From Burkholderiales bacterium C2 (GTDB taxonomy: Bacteria > Pseudomonadota > Gammaproteobacteria > Burkholderiales > Burkholderiaceae_C), in assembly GCA_005503085.1 (NCBI GenBank), contig SCOI01000012.1, positions 124,001 to 188,000 of the forward strand: a stretch of DNA of 64,000 nucleotides, read 5' to 3'. A program made the position numbers and the translations under genes. The notes below the pieces were generated by a model. That model saw only the letters and a list, made by a program, of their open reading frames with translations. It had not been told where the DNA came from and made no database searches. Shown piece after piece: positions 1 through 5,810 of the stretch. The first letter of the stretch is position 1, and every line of letters begins with the position of its first letter.

Positions 1-1
1 G

Positions 2-142
2 GGCAAGTTGCTGGACGGTGTGTCCAAGGAGGAACGGATCAAGGAACTGCAGTCGTACTACGACATCGCGCAGAAAAGCCTGAAGGACGCCAAGGCGAAG
101 CTGGCCGAGCCGCCTGCCGCAGCGTCCGCAGCCGCGCCGTAA
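2..142 (+). CDS. C-terminal fragment of an unidentified protein (5' end outside window)
   Basis: An open frame enters from the window edge and ends at TAA (140-142), giving 46 visible residues. The visible part is charged and likely helical (repeated Lys/Glu with heptad-like Leu spacing) and ends in an Ala/Pro-rich tail. Such a tail resembles a linker or a disordered C-terminus. I do not recognise the protein. It lies 24 nt upstream of the next gene on the same strand, so it may be the first member of the accessory block that follows. Start, length and domain content cannot be judged. Confidence 0.6.
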   Translation, partial: GKLLDGVSKEERIKELQSYYDIAQKSLKDAKAKLAEPPAAASAAAP

Positions 143-166
143 CTCCACCATCTCCCAGGAGGCAAC

Positions 167-532
167 ATGGATCCGTCACCACTTAGACTGCTGGAGCTTT
201 TGAAGAGCGCAATCGAGCTGATGCAGTCAGAGAACAGCTACCTCGGCGGACTGCTGAGCAACCCGTTTCTCACGCCCCAGGACCGTATCGACATCGGGGT
301 GACACGTTCTCAGCTGGACATGGACATCGATAGCGTCAAGCACAAAGCGGCCGAGGTGCGAGATGCGTACCTGGGCGGCACCTTCCCGGAGGTCAAGCCG
401 AACGTCATCAAGGATGTCATGGATGCGACCGCGGCCCTGGGCGACAAACTTCGGAACGCGGCTCAACTGCAAGCCATGTTGGCGGCCACTGCCGGGTTCC
501 TGGGTGTCATCAACGCGCTGGTGAAGCCGTAG
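167..532 (+). CDS. Small helical hypothetical protein (121 aa)
   Basis: The ATG at 167 follows a good ribosome binding site (AGGAGG at 157-162). The protein is predicted to be mostly alpha-helical. It has an amphipathic N-terminus, a central charged segment and a hydrophobic, Gly/Ala-rich C-terminal stretch (about residues 100-118) that could touch a membrane or pack in a bundle. There is no signal peptide, no Cys and no recognisable catalytic motif. It lies between a C-terminal gene fragment and the pseudoprotease gene, on the same strand and with the same weaker GC bias as the ATPase genes downstream, so I infer it belongs to the same accessory unit. The 364 nt gap before the next gene argues against simple operonic coupling. 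Function unknown. Confidence 0.7.
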   Translation: MDPSPLRLLELLKSAIELMQSENSYLGGLLSNPFLTPQDRIDIGVTRSQLDMDIDSVKHKAAEVRDAYLGGTFPEVKPNVIKDVMDATAALGDKLRNAAQLQAMLAATAGFLGVINALVKP

Positions 533-896
533 CTCGGTCGATGTCGATCCGACAGCCGCGCAGAAAGGGCTGCAGGCCAGTGGATTCGCGTGGCGCAACT
601 TATGGACCACGGCGATCTCCAGAAAGACCGCTTCGCAGCGGTTGCCGTCTTCGGCCATCAGCCACCGAATTCACGCTCTCTGGTATGAAGCAGGCGCCGA
701 CGCACCTGGCCGGCTGACTGGTTCAGCGACCGGTGTCAAGGGTGTTGCGGTCGCCCACCCAGGCTGCGCGGCAGTCGCCATCGAACGAAAGGCGCCGTGA
801 CTTGAGGGATTGCTGGCCTTTTAGAACCGGGGTCGGCTCCTTATACTGATTCGCTACCCAGGCAGAGGGGCTCATTGTCGAAGTGGAGGGTTGGCG
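533..896 (+). other. 364-nt intergenic region
   Basis: No open frame in this stretch has coding character. A frame on the minus strand that runs in from the preceding gene has no ribosome binding site and looks like a shadow. The right end holds the proposed promoter and ribosome binding site for the pseudoprotease operon. I see no terminator with a T-tract after the 121-residue gene. No clear repeat or attachment site was found. Confidence 0.5.
820..847 (+). promoter_or_regulatory. Possible sigma70-type promoter of the pseudoprotease-ATPase operon
   Basis: A good -10 hexamer (TATACT, 842-847) is preceded at a 16-nt spacing by a weak -35-like hexamer (TTTAGA, 820-825). Transcription would start near 854, leaving a leader of about 43 nt before the ATG at 897. 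It is the best promoter-like match in the gap. The -35 is poor, so this is a suggestion only. Confidence 0.3.
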
Positions 897-2483
897 ATGG
901 CTGCTTCCAGTGCCGGCCGATCGAGTGGGAGGCGGATGAGCGAGGTAATCATTCCGTTCGCGACCAGGGCGGTGCTCTCAGGGTTGCTGCTGCTGCTGGC
1001 GGTTGTCCTCGCTTGGCAGGCTTACCGAATGTGGTTCAACAAGTCGCTGGTGCTGACCCCTTTTGACTTTCTAGAGGCAGGCACACCGTCCGTTCCTGCT
1101 GGCGAGCAGTTCTCGAGAATGGTCCGCGCCGACCTAGTCCAGCTTGCCGATCTCTACAGCGCCGGCCAAGTAGTCAACCAGGCGGCAGTCCCGGCCTCGG
1201 CACCCGGGTCCGTCCCGCCGATGGAACTGCCCGTCCTTTTCGACGTTTCTTTTTTTGAATCCGTCGAACTCAAGGCATACGGGGTGGAGTTCGGCTCGAT
1301 CTTCAAGGCCTTGCGGCGGCATCTGGAGTCACCCAGCGAGATCTCGGGCAGCGTCACGCATCAAGGAACTGCCTACACCGTGTTCGCGGAATCCAGACAG
1401 TCGGGCCTTGGCGCCAAGGGCACACATCGGTGGAACATCCCGTACGCAAAGGACCTGCCAGAGGCGTCGCGGAAGCTCGCATGCAACGTTTTCCGCCACC
1501 TTACCGCAAGCGACAAGAGCAACCATCGTGACGCCCCATTGTACCGGGCGGTGGACGACGAGGAGTTCTACCTCTTCAACGTCGCTCTCGCCGCATACGA
1601 ACAGTACCGTCAACGCAAGGCCACCCTGGCGGACGCTGACGCGTCGGCCATCCTCGCAGCTGCAGACAAGCCACTGGAGAGTTTGCTCAAGCGCGAAGTC
1701 GTGAGCTTTCCCTACGTGCACAAGTTGGCTGCACTGGTGTTTTTCGAGCAGAAGAAGTACGACGCGGCGGAGGAAGAGCTCACGCTGCACCTGGCATGGC
1801 TCAAGGGCGAGGGGCGCGATCAGGGCCCGGCCCGGGAGTTGCTCGCCAAGATCAAGTCAACTAGCCTGCAAAAAAATCCTGCGATCAGCCGCGCCAGGCC
1901 GCTTCAGCCTGGAACAAGCGTCGGATCCTTGATCGACAACAAGGCCGTTGGAATGATCTGCTGTTTCGCAAAGGCTGCCGACGGCACCCGATACGCGGTC
2001 AGCGCGGCGACCGCACTTGGAACCGCGTCTGACGCGAGGGTCGTCCAGCCAGCAGTGCGCGATGGCGGAATCGCGGCTGATGTGATTGGTGAGCGCGACA
2101 AGGTGACGGAGACGGTTGCGCTCGTCAAGCTCAAGGCAGGCACGAAATGGAAGAAGGAGATTCCGGAGTTGGGCGTCATCAATGGCCTGGCTTCGAAGCT
2201 CGCTGCCGGCGACTCGGTCGTCGCCTACGGCTTCGATGGCAAGCGGCACGAGGGCACGGTGATAAGCACCGGGAACCCGGTGAACGTCAATGTTGAAGGT
2301 AAAAAGATTACCGTCAAGAACGCGACCGTGACGTCCATCGTCTCCGGTGGGGAACTGGGAGGGCCGGTGCTAACCACGGATGGCAAGCTCGTCGGCATGA
2401 TTTTCGGTTCAAGTGGGACCACGACGGTGGTCGCACCCGTGGAACAGGTGCTCAAAGACCTGGGACTGGAAATGGTGAAGTAG
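897..2483 (+). CDS. Membrane-anchored trypsin-fold pseudoprotease
   Basis: The ATG at 897 is chosen because GGAGGG (885-890) lies 6 nt upstream; a TTG at 891 is too close to it. This gives 528 aa. A single membrane helix (about residues 25-46, rich in Leu/Val) is followed by an unrecognised alpha/beta region. Residues about 345-525 resemble a chymotrypsin/trypsin-2 fold: a VSAA-type strand, an ALVKL strand, and a GGP motif before a VGMIFG strand. The three catalytic positions look replaced by eye: Thr372 for His (in VSAATAL), Thr406 for Asp (in TVALVK), and Leu487 for the nucleophilic Ser (GELGGP instead of GDSGGP). I therefore infer a non-catalytic, binding or sensing domain. A region around residues 255-330 has TPR-like helices. 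The next gene starts 4 nt after the stop, so it is co-transcribed with the two ATPases. Confidence 0.75.
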   Translation: MAASSAGRSSGRRMSEVIIPFATRAVLSGLLLLLAVVLAWQAYRMWFNKSLVLTPFDFLEAGTPSVPAGEQFSRMVRADLVQLADLYSAGQVVNQAAVPASAPGSVPPMELPVLFDVSFFESVELKAYGVEFGSIFKALRRHLESPSEISGSVTHQGTAYTVFAESRQSGLGAKGTHRWNIPYAKDLPEASRKLACNVFRHLTASDKSNHRDAPLYRAVDDEEFYLFNVALAAYEQYRQRKATLADADASAILAAADKPLESLLKREVVSFPYVHKLAALVFFEQKKYDAAEEELTLHLAWLKGEGRDQGPARELLAKIKSTSLQKNPAISRARPLQPGTSVGSLIDNKAVGMICCFAKAADGTRYAVSAATALGTASDARVVQPAVRDGGIAADVIGERDKVTETVALVKLKAGTKWKKEIPELGVINGLASKLAAGDSVVAYGFDGKRHEGTVISTGNPVNVNVEGKKITVKNATVTSIVSGGELGGPVLTTDGKLVGMIFGSSGTTTVVAPVEQVLKDLGLEMVK

Positions 2484-2487
2484 CGCA

Positions 2488-3459
2488 ATGGCAGCTGGAT
2501 ACAAGGAAGCCTTCGGCCTTGCTGACAACCCGTTCGGGCCAGCCAGACCCGTGCCCGGGCTACCGGTGCCGCTGACGGCCAATCTGCAGGTCCGACCGCT
2601 GATGCTGCATAGGAACCCGAAGCTGAACGATCTCTACTGTGAGAGCCTGTCGTCGTTTCAGGATGCTTGCAAGAAGTTGGAAGTCGCGCTCGAGGTGGCG
2701 GGGTACACGGCCAACCCGCCTGATCGTGGGACGGCCTCCTACCTCGTTTCTATCGCTGGCGACCGGGGCGCCGGAAAGACGACGCTAGCCTCCCGGATGA
2801 TCCAGATGATGCAACTGCGCGCACCGCAGGGCGGATCGGCGTGGGTGGTTGAAGAACTGCTGCTGAACTCTACCCAGGAGACCGTAGACGAGCAGGGCGC
2901 GAAACTCAAGGCTTTGGAGGCGAAGATCATCGGGCAGCCGCCCGAATACGTATGCATTCTGGTTGATGATCTGCGGGCGGACGCCTACGCCAACGTCGCA
3001 GCGATGTACGACAACCTGCTGAATCACACCGTCGTCTTCATCGTGTTCACGAGTTGGGACCCGAAGATGCCCGAGCAGATCGACAAAGCACTGCACCCGG
3101 TCCACAAGTTCGACATTCCGCCCCTTTCGCCCGACGACGCGGTGGCGTTCGTCAACTCGCGTTACCAGTTCTTCCGCTCAAAGCCGGGCAACGGTCTGAG
3201 CGCTGAGCCATTCTTTCCCTTTGACGAGGAAGACATTCGAACCGCCGTAGCGGTGCGCGTCATCAGCGGCTCAGCAAACACCGGTCCCATCAGTCTGCGC
3301 ATGTTTGCAAGCATCCTCCAATCTGCGCTCCTGAAGCGACTGCAGGAAATCGCAGCGGACAATGACGATGCGTTCGATGTGCAGGCGATACCTCTCGACA
3401 AGCTGCGGTCCATGAAGATCAAGCTGGCGCAGGCATACGAGGTCGTGGTGCGTCAATGA
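2488..3459 (+). CDS. AAA-type P-loop ATPase of the accessory block
   Basis: This is a 323-aa cytoplasmic protein with Walker A GDRGAGKT (residues 91-98) and Walker B-like VCILVDD (155-161). An N-terminal segment containing NPFGP recalls the lead-in of ExeA/GspA-like AAA proteins, but I cannot assign it to a family. The stretch between the Walker motifs is short, and the C-terminal third is helical, as in AAA lid domains. It has no membrane helix. The ATG lies 4 nt after the pseudoprotease stop, and the gene overlaps the next by ATGA (3456-3459), so the three proteins are probably made in a fixed ratio and act together. I infer that it powers or gates the membrane complex. Substrate unknown. 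Confidence 0.8.
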   Translation: MAAGYKEAFGLADNPFGPARPVPGLPVPLTANLQVRPLMLHRNPKLNDLYCESLSSFQDACKKLEVALEVAGYTANPPDRGTASYLVSIAGDRGAGKTTLASRMIQMMQLRAPQGGSAWVVEELLLNSTQETVDEQGAKLKALEAKIIGQPPEYVCILVDDLRADAYANVAAMYDNLLNHTVVFIVFTSWDPKMPEQIDKALHPVHKFDIPPLSPDDAVAFVNSRYQFFRSKPGNGLSAEPFFPFDEEDIRTAVAVRVISGSANTGPISLRMFASILQSALLKRLQEIAADNDDAFDVQAIPLDKLRSMKIKLAQAYEVVVRQ

Positions 3460-5810
3460 ACAAGAGCAAGCTCAACCCGTTCCCGGACTACCCGGTCACG
3501 AGACTGATGGACAGTCGCGAGGCCGGCCCGGCCACCGTCCTCACGCCTGGAGTAAGGGCGGGTCGGGAACTTGTAGACAAGTTCGTCAGCGGCCTTCATC
3601 AAGTGCCTCAGGGCGCGCAGACCGGCGCGGCACTGTGCGCGGTTCGTGGCGACTATGGAACGGGCAAGACGTTCCTGCTAAATGACGTGGCAGCCTACCT
3701 GTGCCAGACCTGTGGCACTACGAGTCCGCCCACCATCCTTCGCGCAACCTGTATCGAAACGGATCCCCTGTCATGGTTCAAGTCGAAGGTGGGACAGCGG
3801 CTCGACGAACTTCCTCTGGGCGAGATCGCGCTGCGCCTGTACGGCCGCGCCGGGGCGGTCGTTGCCGGTAGGACGGCGCTGACGGACTCCGCTGTAGCGT
3901 TGCTACAAGCGGATCCAACGCGGATCCGCGACCTCATCCGGAGCAACCAGCTCAGTGTTGATGAGGTGGGTCGGGAGTTCCAGAAGCAGTTGGACGTGGT
4001 CTGCAAAGACTATGACGAAACTGTGCGACGCGTCCTGGCCCGCCTGGTGGCGTCAGAGACCGAACGCACGGCGCGACAATGGATCAGCGGAGTCGCACTC
4101 AGTGCTCGAGACGCCGAGTTGCTCGGCGTGCCGACGGAGATCGACTCGGCCGACCGTGTGTCATCGCTCATTGGCGCCATCGCCGCTATGCACCGAGCGG
4201 TCGGCCGGCCCTTTGTGCTGCTCGTTGACGAGTTGGAGCACTTCGCACGGCATGACATTGCACAGAGATCCTGGAGCAACGTCACTTGGCTAAAGCGACT
4301 GCTCGAGCACCTAGGTGATGCAGGTGCCCTTGCGCTGGTGGCGGGGCACTGGGACGCCTGGAAAACAACGGCGGACTACCTCGACCGGTTCCCCCAGCAC
4401 TCGCCGATCGACTTGGTGAAGCTCAAGGCGAACGACGTCGCGGAAATCGTCGAACGCTTCCTCGGCGCACGGCCGGTCCACTTCGGAGAGCAGCAATGCC
4501 GTGCGATCGCGACGGCAACCGGCGGAAATATGCGCCGTGTCATGTCCCTCTGCAACCTTCTGTTCAGGCAGACGGACGGTTTTGCCTTGCCACTGACCGA
4601 GGCTGCGATCCAAGCTGCGTGGCTGTCCGTCGCACAACGCATCCCGCAAGAGCAGGCCCTCGAGGAGACTGCCAGCTTGCTTGACAAGAGGGGCTTCGAA
4701 ACCAGCACGGAGTCGCTCTTCGGGAACCTGCACTTTGACCTGGTCGCCCGGCGCGCAGACGGTCGCGTGATCCTTCTGGAAGCAAAACACGCCGATACGC
4801 AGGGCGCTCATTACGATGCGGCGCGCCGCTTTATCGACAAGCTCGATCAGGTGACAAGGGACAATCCCAAGAGCATCGGCATGTTCTTGGTCAATGGCAG
4901 CGTCGACGATGAGTTGCTCCGCGTGCTGCGCAGCGGTGGCCGAACCAACGTCAGATGGTTTGACCTCACGGCTCGTGACGTCCTCAGTCGAATCGAAACC
5001 GAGATCGCATCGCTCGATGGTGTGATGCTATCGCCGACCCGGAGTTCCGCTGATCTGCACCAGGCCGGCCCGGCTACGACTGCAGCCGCTTTGCCGACCG
5101 CCGTCCTTGCACCCGCCACGGCCCCAATCGCCGCGCCGGCCGATGCGCAGCTCGCTGCCCTCCAGCAGGCGACGGCCAGCCTCGAAAGGCAACTTCGAGA
5201 ACTGGACGCGAGGCGTGGCCGCGAGGTGCAGGAGTTGCAAGAGCGGCTGTCCAGGGCAAGCCAAGCAAACAGCGAGCGGCATGGCTCTCCTCGCCAGGAA
5301 TCGATCCAGCAGGAAACCGACGTGAGTCGGGAACGTGCGCGTGCGCGCTACGAGGCATTGCTTGAGCAACCTTCGATTCACAACAAGCTGCGTTACTTCG
5401 GCCCCGCGCTCACGATAGGAATCCTCTACGTCGCATGCGGACTATTGGCATTGCTCTTCGACGAAAGAATCCTCTCGGCGCTGCGTGTGCAAATGGACCC
5501 GAGACTCATGCAATCGCTGATGATCATCTTCGGGGTGATGACGGCACTCTCCGGTTTCTGGCTGATCTGGCGCCGCTATGCAGTCATTGCGGAGTACTTC
5601 GAAACCACCCGCCGCACGATACGGGACCTTTATCTGCGTGACGTTCCCATTAGTGAACTAGAGCGAGTAAGCGCCATTTTTCGCCGATCCATAGAGTCAG
5701 AGGGAGTCGGCAATGCGCGTCGCGAGGCGGTAGAGAAGCTCAAGCAGAGCAACTTCTCTGAAGAGGTGAGAAATTACGTTGCTGAGAACGTGGAGCGGAG
5801 GGTCTACTGA
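3456..5810 (+). CDS. P-loop ATPase / PD-(D/E)xK-like nuclease / coiled coil / two-helix membrane protein
   Basis: 784 aa. Walker A GDYGTGKT is at residues 65-72 and Walker B FVLLVDELEHF at 253-263, in a layout that recalls KAP- or ORC/STAND-like NTPases. After a helical lid comes FD(428)LVARRADGRVILLE(442)AK(444), which matches the D...ExK core of PD-(D/E)xK nuclease folds (Mrr/RecB-like). A polar Ala/Pro linker (about 520-560), a coiled coil (about 563-605) and two membrane helices (about 647-669 and 685-708) follow, with a charged helical tail. The nuclease assignment rests on motif spacing only and is inferred. The start overlaps the preceding stop by 4 nt. The pairing of an NTPase with a nuclease-like domain is typical of conflict systems, but this exact architecture is not one I know. 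Confidence 0.75.
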   Translation: MNKSKLNPFPDYPVTRLMDSREAGPATVLTPGVRAGRELVDKFVSGLHQVPQGAQTGAALCAVRGDYGTGKTFLLNDVAAYLCQTCGTTSPPTILRATCIETDPLSWFKSKVGQRLDELPLGEIALRLYGRAGAVVAGRTALTDSAVALLQADPTRIRDLIRSNQLSVDEVGREFQKQLDVVCKDYDETVRRVLARLVASETERTARQWISGVALSARDAELLGVPTEIDSADRVSSLIGAIAAMHRAVGRPFVLLVDELEHFARHDIAQRSWSNVTWLKRLLEHLGDAGALALVAGHWDAWKTTADYLDRFPQHSPIDLVKLKANDVAEIVERFLGARPVHFGEQQCRAIATATGGNMRRVMSLCNLLFRQTDGFALPLTEAAIQAAWLSVAQRIPQEQALEETASLLDKRGFETSTESLFGNLHFDLVARRADGRVILLEAKHADTQGAHYDAARRFIDKLDQVTRDNPKSIGMFLVNGSVDDELLRVLRSGGRTNVRWFDLTARDVLSRIETEIASLDGVMLSPTRSSADLHQAGPATTAAALPTAVLAPATAPIAAPADAQLAALQQATASLERQLRELDARRGREVQELQERLSRASQANSERHGSPRQESIQQETDVSRERARARYEALLEQPSIHNKLRYFGPALTIGILYVACGLLALLFDERILSALRVQMDPRLMQSLMIIFGVMTALSGFWLIWRRYAVIAEYFETTRRTIRDLYLRDVPISELERVSAIFRRSIESEGVGNARREAVEKLKQSNFSEEVRNYVAENVERRVY

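Follow-up and report, generated by a model that had tools for sequence, protein, structure and literature searches.

A block of six genes, here called A to F, lies at and just beyond the left end of the 64,000-nucleotide stretch of Burkholderiales bacterium C2 that was analysed (the window; positions 124001-188000 of contig SCOI01000012.1, C3 below). Its largest product inside the window, F, is a predicted membrane-anchored Orc/Cdc6-type AAA+ ATPase, which is encoded directly downstream of a smaller P-loop protein, E, and a membrane-anchored trypsin-fold protein, D. The preferred reading, held tentatively and at a little under an even chance, is that the block is a membrane-coupled variant, without a KAP NTPase, of a predicted Orc/Cdc6-type counter-invader system. 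Membership in the class of conflict (counter-invader) systems is more secure than any mechanism and is somewhat probable, because homologues of F adjoin genes for KAP NTPases in three of five loci, because those KAP proteins match QatA and PifA profiles, and because PMC10853773 (NAR 2024) predicts the set of E, F and KAP. An earlier note on this DNA had proposed an undescribed membrane NTPase system of the bacterial-conflict type; the conflict type stands by association, and "undescribed" holds in that the core, in the open-access literature searched, is unnamed, but not in that one sentence of PMC10853773 predicts it.

The operons described in PMC10853773 combine an Orc/Cdc6 ATPase, a second Orc/Cdc6 protein in which Walker A is intact and Walker B disrupted, and a KAP NTPase; they are left unnamed, and are predicted to act against selfish DNA. 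Fusions to STAND, TIR and pentapeptide modules are reported for such operons, and an inactive restriction endonuclease (REase) domain for related Orc/Cdc6 ATPases. The window shares with the operons an ATPase with active motifs (F) and a smaller P-loop protein lacking the Walker B glutamate (E). Two of the other F loci, L035 and L036, fit the published arrangement including KAP, and a third, L037, fits it for F and KAP with a more divergent middle protein. In contrast, the window has no KAP gene beside E and F, but has the membrane pseudo-trypsin D and possibly A, B and C, and its F has a coiled coil and two transmembrane (TM) helices at the C-terminus rather than a STAND, TIR or pentapeptide module.

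The ATPase F and its relatives

By its predicted structure and motifs, F belongs with the Orc/Cdc6/TnsC-like AAA+ ATPases and carries the motifs of nucleotide binding and ring assembly. The model was made with AlphaFold2 from a shallow alignment of four sequences and has a mean predicted local distance difference test score (pLDDT) of 72.8. The best solved neighbours of its AAA+ domain are Cdc6/Orc proteins and TnsC, among them Cdc6/Orc1 (2qby_B, Z 15.6, root-mean-square deviation 3.9, 260 residues aligned) and the transposition protein TnsC (7mbw_A, Z 15.4, root-mean-square deviation 3.9, 264 aligned), tied within 1 Z; the AAA+ domain fills the list of this fold search, which barely probes the restriction-endonuclease-like (RE-like) and TM parts. 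The sole Pfam domain above its cut-off is BrxC_BrxD (6.8e-7, 29 bits, cut-off 22.2). Under the customary names of the AAA+ motifs, Walker A, the Walker B aspartate, R311 and R360 are kept in all six F-like proteins, a count that includes the ATPase of locus L040, which is without an E gene; the residue past the Walker B aspartate is glutamate in three and glutamine in the other three. Past residue 519, the model shows a linker, long helices and the TM helices, with no winged helix-turn-helix (wHTH) seen. A match of F to KAP was also considered; it was at 0.028 and in one of five F members, and F is therefore not filed as a KAP protein.

Full-length F was found in two of 299 genomes of the window's family (three candidates per genome scored), namely the window's own and G174, whose F locus is L008. 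A scan of one genome per species (84,980 species) gave 212 pattern matches and three confirmed loci, but rests on two short peptide patterns, so that F is surely under-counted. The confirmed loci belong to a Solibacteraceae metagenome-assembled genome (L035) and a Pyrinomonadaceae one (L036), both Acidobacteriota, and to Planotetraspora thailandica (L037, Actinomycetota). The F proteins of these four further loci are clear homologues (tblastn E 1e-14 to 1e-118), with identities to the window's protein of 20% in G174, 32% in L035, 35% in L036 and 20% in L037. Furthermore, a profile of the window, L035 and L036 proteins gives the remaining pair scores of 70.2 and 59.6 bits and the L040 ATPase one of 27.4. 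In samples of the class (369 genomes) and of the phylum (398 genomes, threshold 1e-6) there was no second full-length F, an absence that is weak since at most two candidates were scored per genome; a single-sequence scan of genome contigs gave 23 pattern matches, none confirmed. Left out as F were G168 (a 68-residue match at 540-607), G472 (17.9 bits), the partial matches of 23 family genomes and another such match in G174; the F-like ATPase of G1169 (L040, 46 bits), which is without E, was left out of the count and used for comparison only.

The KAP gene lies 3' of F in L035 and L036, and 5' of the gene in the E position in L037. The three KAP proteins match Pfam at 6.2e-34 to 2.1e-43 and match the QatA, PifA and PDC-S20 profiles.

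Other genes were observed near these ATPases, and elsewhere in the window's genome. In G174, a gene directly upstream of the E-position gene (L008 9025-9987), sharing 4 nucleotides with it, encodes a 320-residue protein that has two hydrophobic helices. The protein is unlike D, has no match at 0.01 in Pfam or PADLOC, and is read as a local alternative to D or KAP. In L037 (7677-20635), genes for an FxsB radical SAM maturase and for an HExxH hydroxylase follow the KAP, E-position and F genes after 138 nucleotides. Further on come a TPR protein of the FxSxx system, encoded on the opposite strand, and an nSTAND1-TPR protein, so that the Orc/Cdc6-KAP set has a cyclophane peptide system as its neighbour. 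A patatin-like phospholipase (Pfam 3e-21) is encoded on the same strand 3' of E, F and KAP in L035 (13853-15001), and was not seen in L036. The Orc/Cdc6-type ATPase of L040 (1211-9245) is accompanied by an FtsK protein with a PD-(D/E)xK/Cas4-like domain, an HNH protein and a PLD-helicase, an apparent HerA/FtsK-capture system. On contig C45 of the window's genome, a gene for a KAP protein of 433 residues (L045 8019-9320) has a GC content at third codon positions (GC3) of 0.62 beside genes of about 0.9; it is flanked, by eye, by a UvrD-type helicase and an aminotransferase, and is a candidate acquired defence gene.

The putative partner protein E, protein D and the layout of the block

An E-sized, P-loop-like gene encoding 300-368 residues stands directly upstream of F in all five loci, at a spacing of -8 to +4 nucleotides with the chosen starts. 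Three of its products are clear E proteins: those of L035 and L036 are homologous to the window's (tblastn 5.6e-39 and 1.7e-37) and adjoin F at a spacing of 0 nucleotides. Walker A is intact in all three, and the Walker B position reads DD in the window (VDDL in place of DE) and DN in the other two, a pattern that predicts an ATP-binding, non-hydrolysing partner for F. The two doubtful E-position proteins, of L008 and L037, have a Walker A without its lysine and no Walker B that could be seen, in an unsure alignment. In a profile comparison, the five E-position proteins scored 26.3 against the ATPase domain of F, with a best of 11.4 among 120 shuffled or reversed controls and a probability of 38%; the two doubtful proteins are among the rows compared, and a P-loop common to both sides may account for some of the score.

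Table 1. Features of the block; positions are those of the window unless marked C3.
Feature	Position	Strand	Description and basis
Gene A	C3:121699-123585, wholly upstream of the window	+	628-residue predicted lipoprotein, lipobox LQGC
Gene B	3' end, window 1-142; rest, C3:123582-124000 (whole gene C3:123582-124142)	+	186-residue predicted lipoprotein, lipobox LSGC
Gene C	167-532	+	121 residues, one hydrophobic segment at 101-119 (hydropathy)
Gene D	936-2483	+	515 residues; TTG alternative start at 891
D, TM helix	957-1013	+	Residues 8-26 (hydropathy)
D, trypsin-like domain	1980-2399	+	Residues 349-488 (Pfam PF13365)
Gene E	2488-3459	+	323-residue P-loop protein
E, Walker A	2758-2781	+	GDRGAGKT, residues 91-98 (motif, alignment)
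Gene F	3456-5810	+	784-residue predicted membrane-anchored Orc/Cdc6-type AAA+ ATPase
F, AAA+ domain	3456-4649	+	Residues 1-398; Walker A 65-72, Walker B D258-E259, R311, R360 (fold search, alignment)
F, RE-like domain	4647-5012	+	Residues 398-519 (modelled strand-helix order; Foldseek 1y88, 2vld, 5gke)
F, PD-(D/E)xK-like residues	4737-4787	+	D428...E442-x-K444, complete in the window copy alone (alignment)
F, long helices	5130-5360	+	559-607 and 613-635, read as coiled coil (model)
F, two TM helices	5403-5570	+	650-668 and 687-705, then a predicted helical C-terminal tail (hydropathy, model)

The six genes form two tight groups, A-B-C and D-E-F, separated by 403 nucleotides (Table 1). A and B overlap by 4 nucleotides and C starts 24 nucleotides past B; D and E are separated by 4 nucleotides, and E and F overlap by 4 (ATGA). 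C is placed with A and B because it lies 24 nucleotides from B as against 403 from D, and its tie to D-E-F is uncertain. That of A-B-C as a whole to D-E-F is based on adjacency and GC3 only. The GC3 of A to F is 0.72-0.79, against 0.83-0.94 in nine measured neighbouring genes; low values in all six fit a common foreign origin, and the cluster was probably acquired. The earlier note had C, D, E and F as co-directional genes with these junctions, a weaker GC bias, a P-loop in E and a membrane-anchored trypsin-fold pseudoprotease, all of which were found again; F has a P-loop too. It had begun the block at base 2, and this does not hold: the low-GC3 block starts 2.3 kb upstream of the window at the lipoprotein genes A and B, in a stretch of the same contig confirmed to be contiguous with the window. 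The 403 nucleotides between C and D (533-935) hold no convincing open reading frame, the largest one wholly contained on the + strand encoding 58 residues. Promoter and terminator matches are not above chance, among them a promoter-like one at 820-847.

D matches Pfam Trypsin_2 (PF13365) at 5.9e-7 (30.7 bits, cut-off 27.6), and its middle region has no family match. In weak phmmer matches (E 0.07-0.08) to the membrane-associated serine protease 3lt3 and to HTRA1, the motif GELGGP of D aligns with the active-site motif, placing Leu474 at the position of the catalytic serine; the 3lt3 and HTRA1 entries used are themselves Ser-to-Ala mutants. From this alignment D is read as a pseudoprotease, that is, a putative membrane-anchored pseudo-trypsin whose catalytic serine is gone. 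D thus shares the fold signature and membrane anchor of MarP/HtrA trypsin-like proteases, but has a leucine for their catalytic serine. A single-sequence model of D is poor (mean pLDDT 40.2) and shows a helix at 2-36. Matches of D to AlphaRep and HEAT proteins, mostly to designed repeat proteins and over one short stretch, were disregarded. Family searches with C gave sub-threshold matches or none. As regards the predicted lipoproteins A and B, outer-membrane sorting is set by the residue after the lipobox cysteine. Among 150 family genomes, the only homologue found for A was A itself and the only one for D was D itself; D has none in plasmids, phages or viral contigs.

Known systems and rival explanations

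Further systems invite comparison. Like the HerA/FtsK-capture ATPases of the Orc/Cdc6-iREase-wHTH type (iREase, inactive REase) in PMC10853773, F is an Orc/Cdc6-type ATPase with a probable RE-like domain behind its AAA+ core; in contrast to them, proteins A to F have no FtsK or HerA match in Pfam, and the F model has no visible wHTH. In BREX, as described in PMC12839542, the large Orc/Cdc6 ATPase BrxC likewise has a small inactive P-loop partner, BrxB, which is a proposed sensor, and inactive REases paired with NTPases are proposed there as nucleotide sensors. F has weak BrxC/D profile matches, and its Foldseek list contains 9zll (a BrxC-BrxB-PglZ complex) and 9zdx (a BrxC dimer). However, F scores 24.9 bits against the BrxD equivalog NF033438, whose cut-off is 350, its C-terminus differs, and no PglZ or methyltransferase was recognised by eye among the listed neighbours. 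The KAP NTPases of Qat (QatA) and PifA find their likeness in the KAP proteins of L035-L037, but not in the window's block, which has none.

The rival explanations that centre on F concern its RE-like domain and its C-terminus. The earlier note took F for a nuclease driven by the ATPases on DNA near the membrane, and the window copy does have D428, E442 and K444 at a fitting spacing on the modelled RE-like order. Foldseek also matches the model to 1y88, to the repair endonuclease 2vld and to EndoMS (5gke) at E 0.015-0.034, without stating in its output which model residues are covered; all three are presumably RE-fold proteins. However, the PD-(D/E)xK residues are complete in one of five F proteins and incomplete in all four relatives, reading E-x-R in L036, A-x-R in L035 and A-x-K in L008, with nothing recognisable in L037; the related Orc/Cdc6 protein of L040 reads E-A-S by eye, over a stretch that the residue alignment does not cover. 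The model on which the spacing is judged has, besides, a mean pLDDT of 72.8, from four sequences, and in PMC10853773 such a domain is an inactive REase in related systems. The PD-(D/E)xK-like residues, coiled coil and two TM helices noted earlier for F are all there, but the residues are not conserved in its relatives and the driven nuclease is not borne out. On the model, residues 398-519 probably correspond to the iREase domain found in such ATPases; nuclease activity of the window's F is possible from its residues, but is not what the F family conserves, and an active nuclease as the working end of the system is quite improbable. A second proposal, that the two-TM C-terminus acts as a SLATT-type, pore-forming effector which the ATPase ring opens on infection in an abortive-infection response, draws on the hydrophobic helix pair that hydropathy finds at the C-terminus of all five F proteins, and on a match of the L037 protein (residues 642-740) to NCBIfam SLATT_1 at 5e-5 and 23.3 bits, where the cut-off is 41. 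That match is confined to one of five F members, a hidden Markov model of 14 proteins found with the SLATT family (12 of them over its cut-off) gave no meaningful score for any F C-terminus, and at least 10 of 40 block-shuffled controls did better than the SLATT profile-profile score of 17.0. The SLATT identity hinted at by L037 was accordingly not upheld, and a pore of this kind has little probability.

The remaining rival places the block outside defence altogether, as a housekeeping or niche-specific envelope machine for secretion or for lipoprotein or cell-wall assembly, comparable to ExeA-type ATPases. It accommodates the predicted lipoproteins A and B and the TM helices of D and F, as well as the 23 family genomes with partial F-profile matches (22 of them inside the stretch 194-471 of the model, one at 17-91, the frames encoding 292-735 residues), whose proteins are probably ExeA-like ATPases. 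Against it stand the patchy spread of full-length F in the family, the KAP association and FxSxx context at other F loci, and the low GC3 of the block, and it is judged unlikely.

Several results also weigh against the preferred reading of a KAP-less counter-invader variant. The window's block contains no KAP gene, and the one KAP match above cut-off in the genome is that on contig C45. The E-position protein of L008 reaches a BLASTP E of 0.003 against E in a single comparison, has no tblastn match to it at 0.01 and is absent from the best 14 matches of the E profile; that of L037 likewise has no tblastn match at 0.01, and scores 7.3 bits against an E profile built without it, no better than KAP (7.6) or F (6.4). 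The likeness to E being not significant in these two loci, a constant E-F pair is shown in three of five only. Alignments of whole E with F give a 28-column match only (probability 27%), and E as an Orc/Cdc6 relative is, on these sequence comparisons, not firm. At a tblastn threshold of 0.01, neither A, B, C nor D finds a match in L008, L035, L036, L037 or L040; of the co-occurrence that had been suggested as a check, E and F are borne out as adjacent homologues in L035 and L036 rather than unrelated singletons, but C and D are without a match in the other F loci. As for signs of mobility, the block proteins have no match in plasmids or phages and none confirmed in viral contigs, a tRNA search of the window found none, the two flanks of the block have no common 12-mer, and no integrase was recognised by eye in the gene lists around it. 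Finally, no experimental test of this family was found in the open-access literature.

Proposed mechanism and meaning

If the block is such a variant, E and F would come together at the inner membrane in one mixed AAA+ ring, in which E would bind ATP as a passive subunit, as in the origin recognition complex (ORC). The RE-like domain of F would serve mainly to sense nucleic acid or nucleotide rather than to cut. The reading of E and of this domain is inferred from a template, the proposals for BrxB and for inactive REases in PMC12839542. D would be a membrane-side adaptor or peptide sensor, filling the slot that KAP takes elsewhere, and recognition of invading DNA would lead the complex to block establishment of that DNA or to damage the membrane. 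This mechanism, with its ring, its RE-like sensor and its adaptor, is possible but doubtful. A broader proposal makes A to F one trans-envelope surveillance machine, in which A and B would be outer-membrane lipoproteins, D would read a peptide or envelope signal, and the membrane-anchored F/E ring with its RE-like sensor would be an Orc/Cdc6 conflict ATPase triggered at the point of DNA entry and not in the cytosol; that all of this applies is unlikely.

Orc/Cdc6-type ATPases are found in BREX, in STAND immunity and in transposon target choice. If true, the reading given here would add a membrane-anchored active ATPase of this type for which other membrane proteins stand in for the KAP partner, and the partner slot would thus be exchangeable. 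D, E and F together would make a three-gene construct with which a prediction based on gene neighbourhoods only becomes directly testable.

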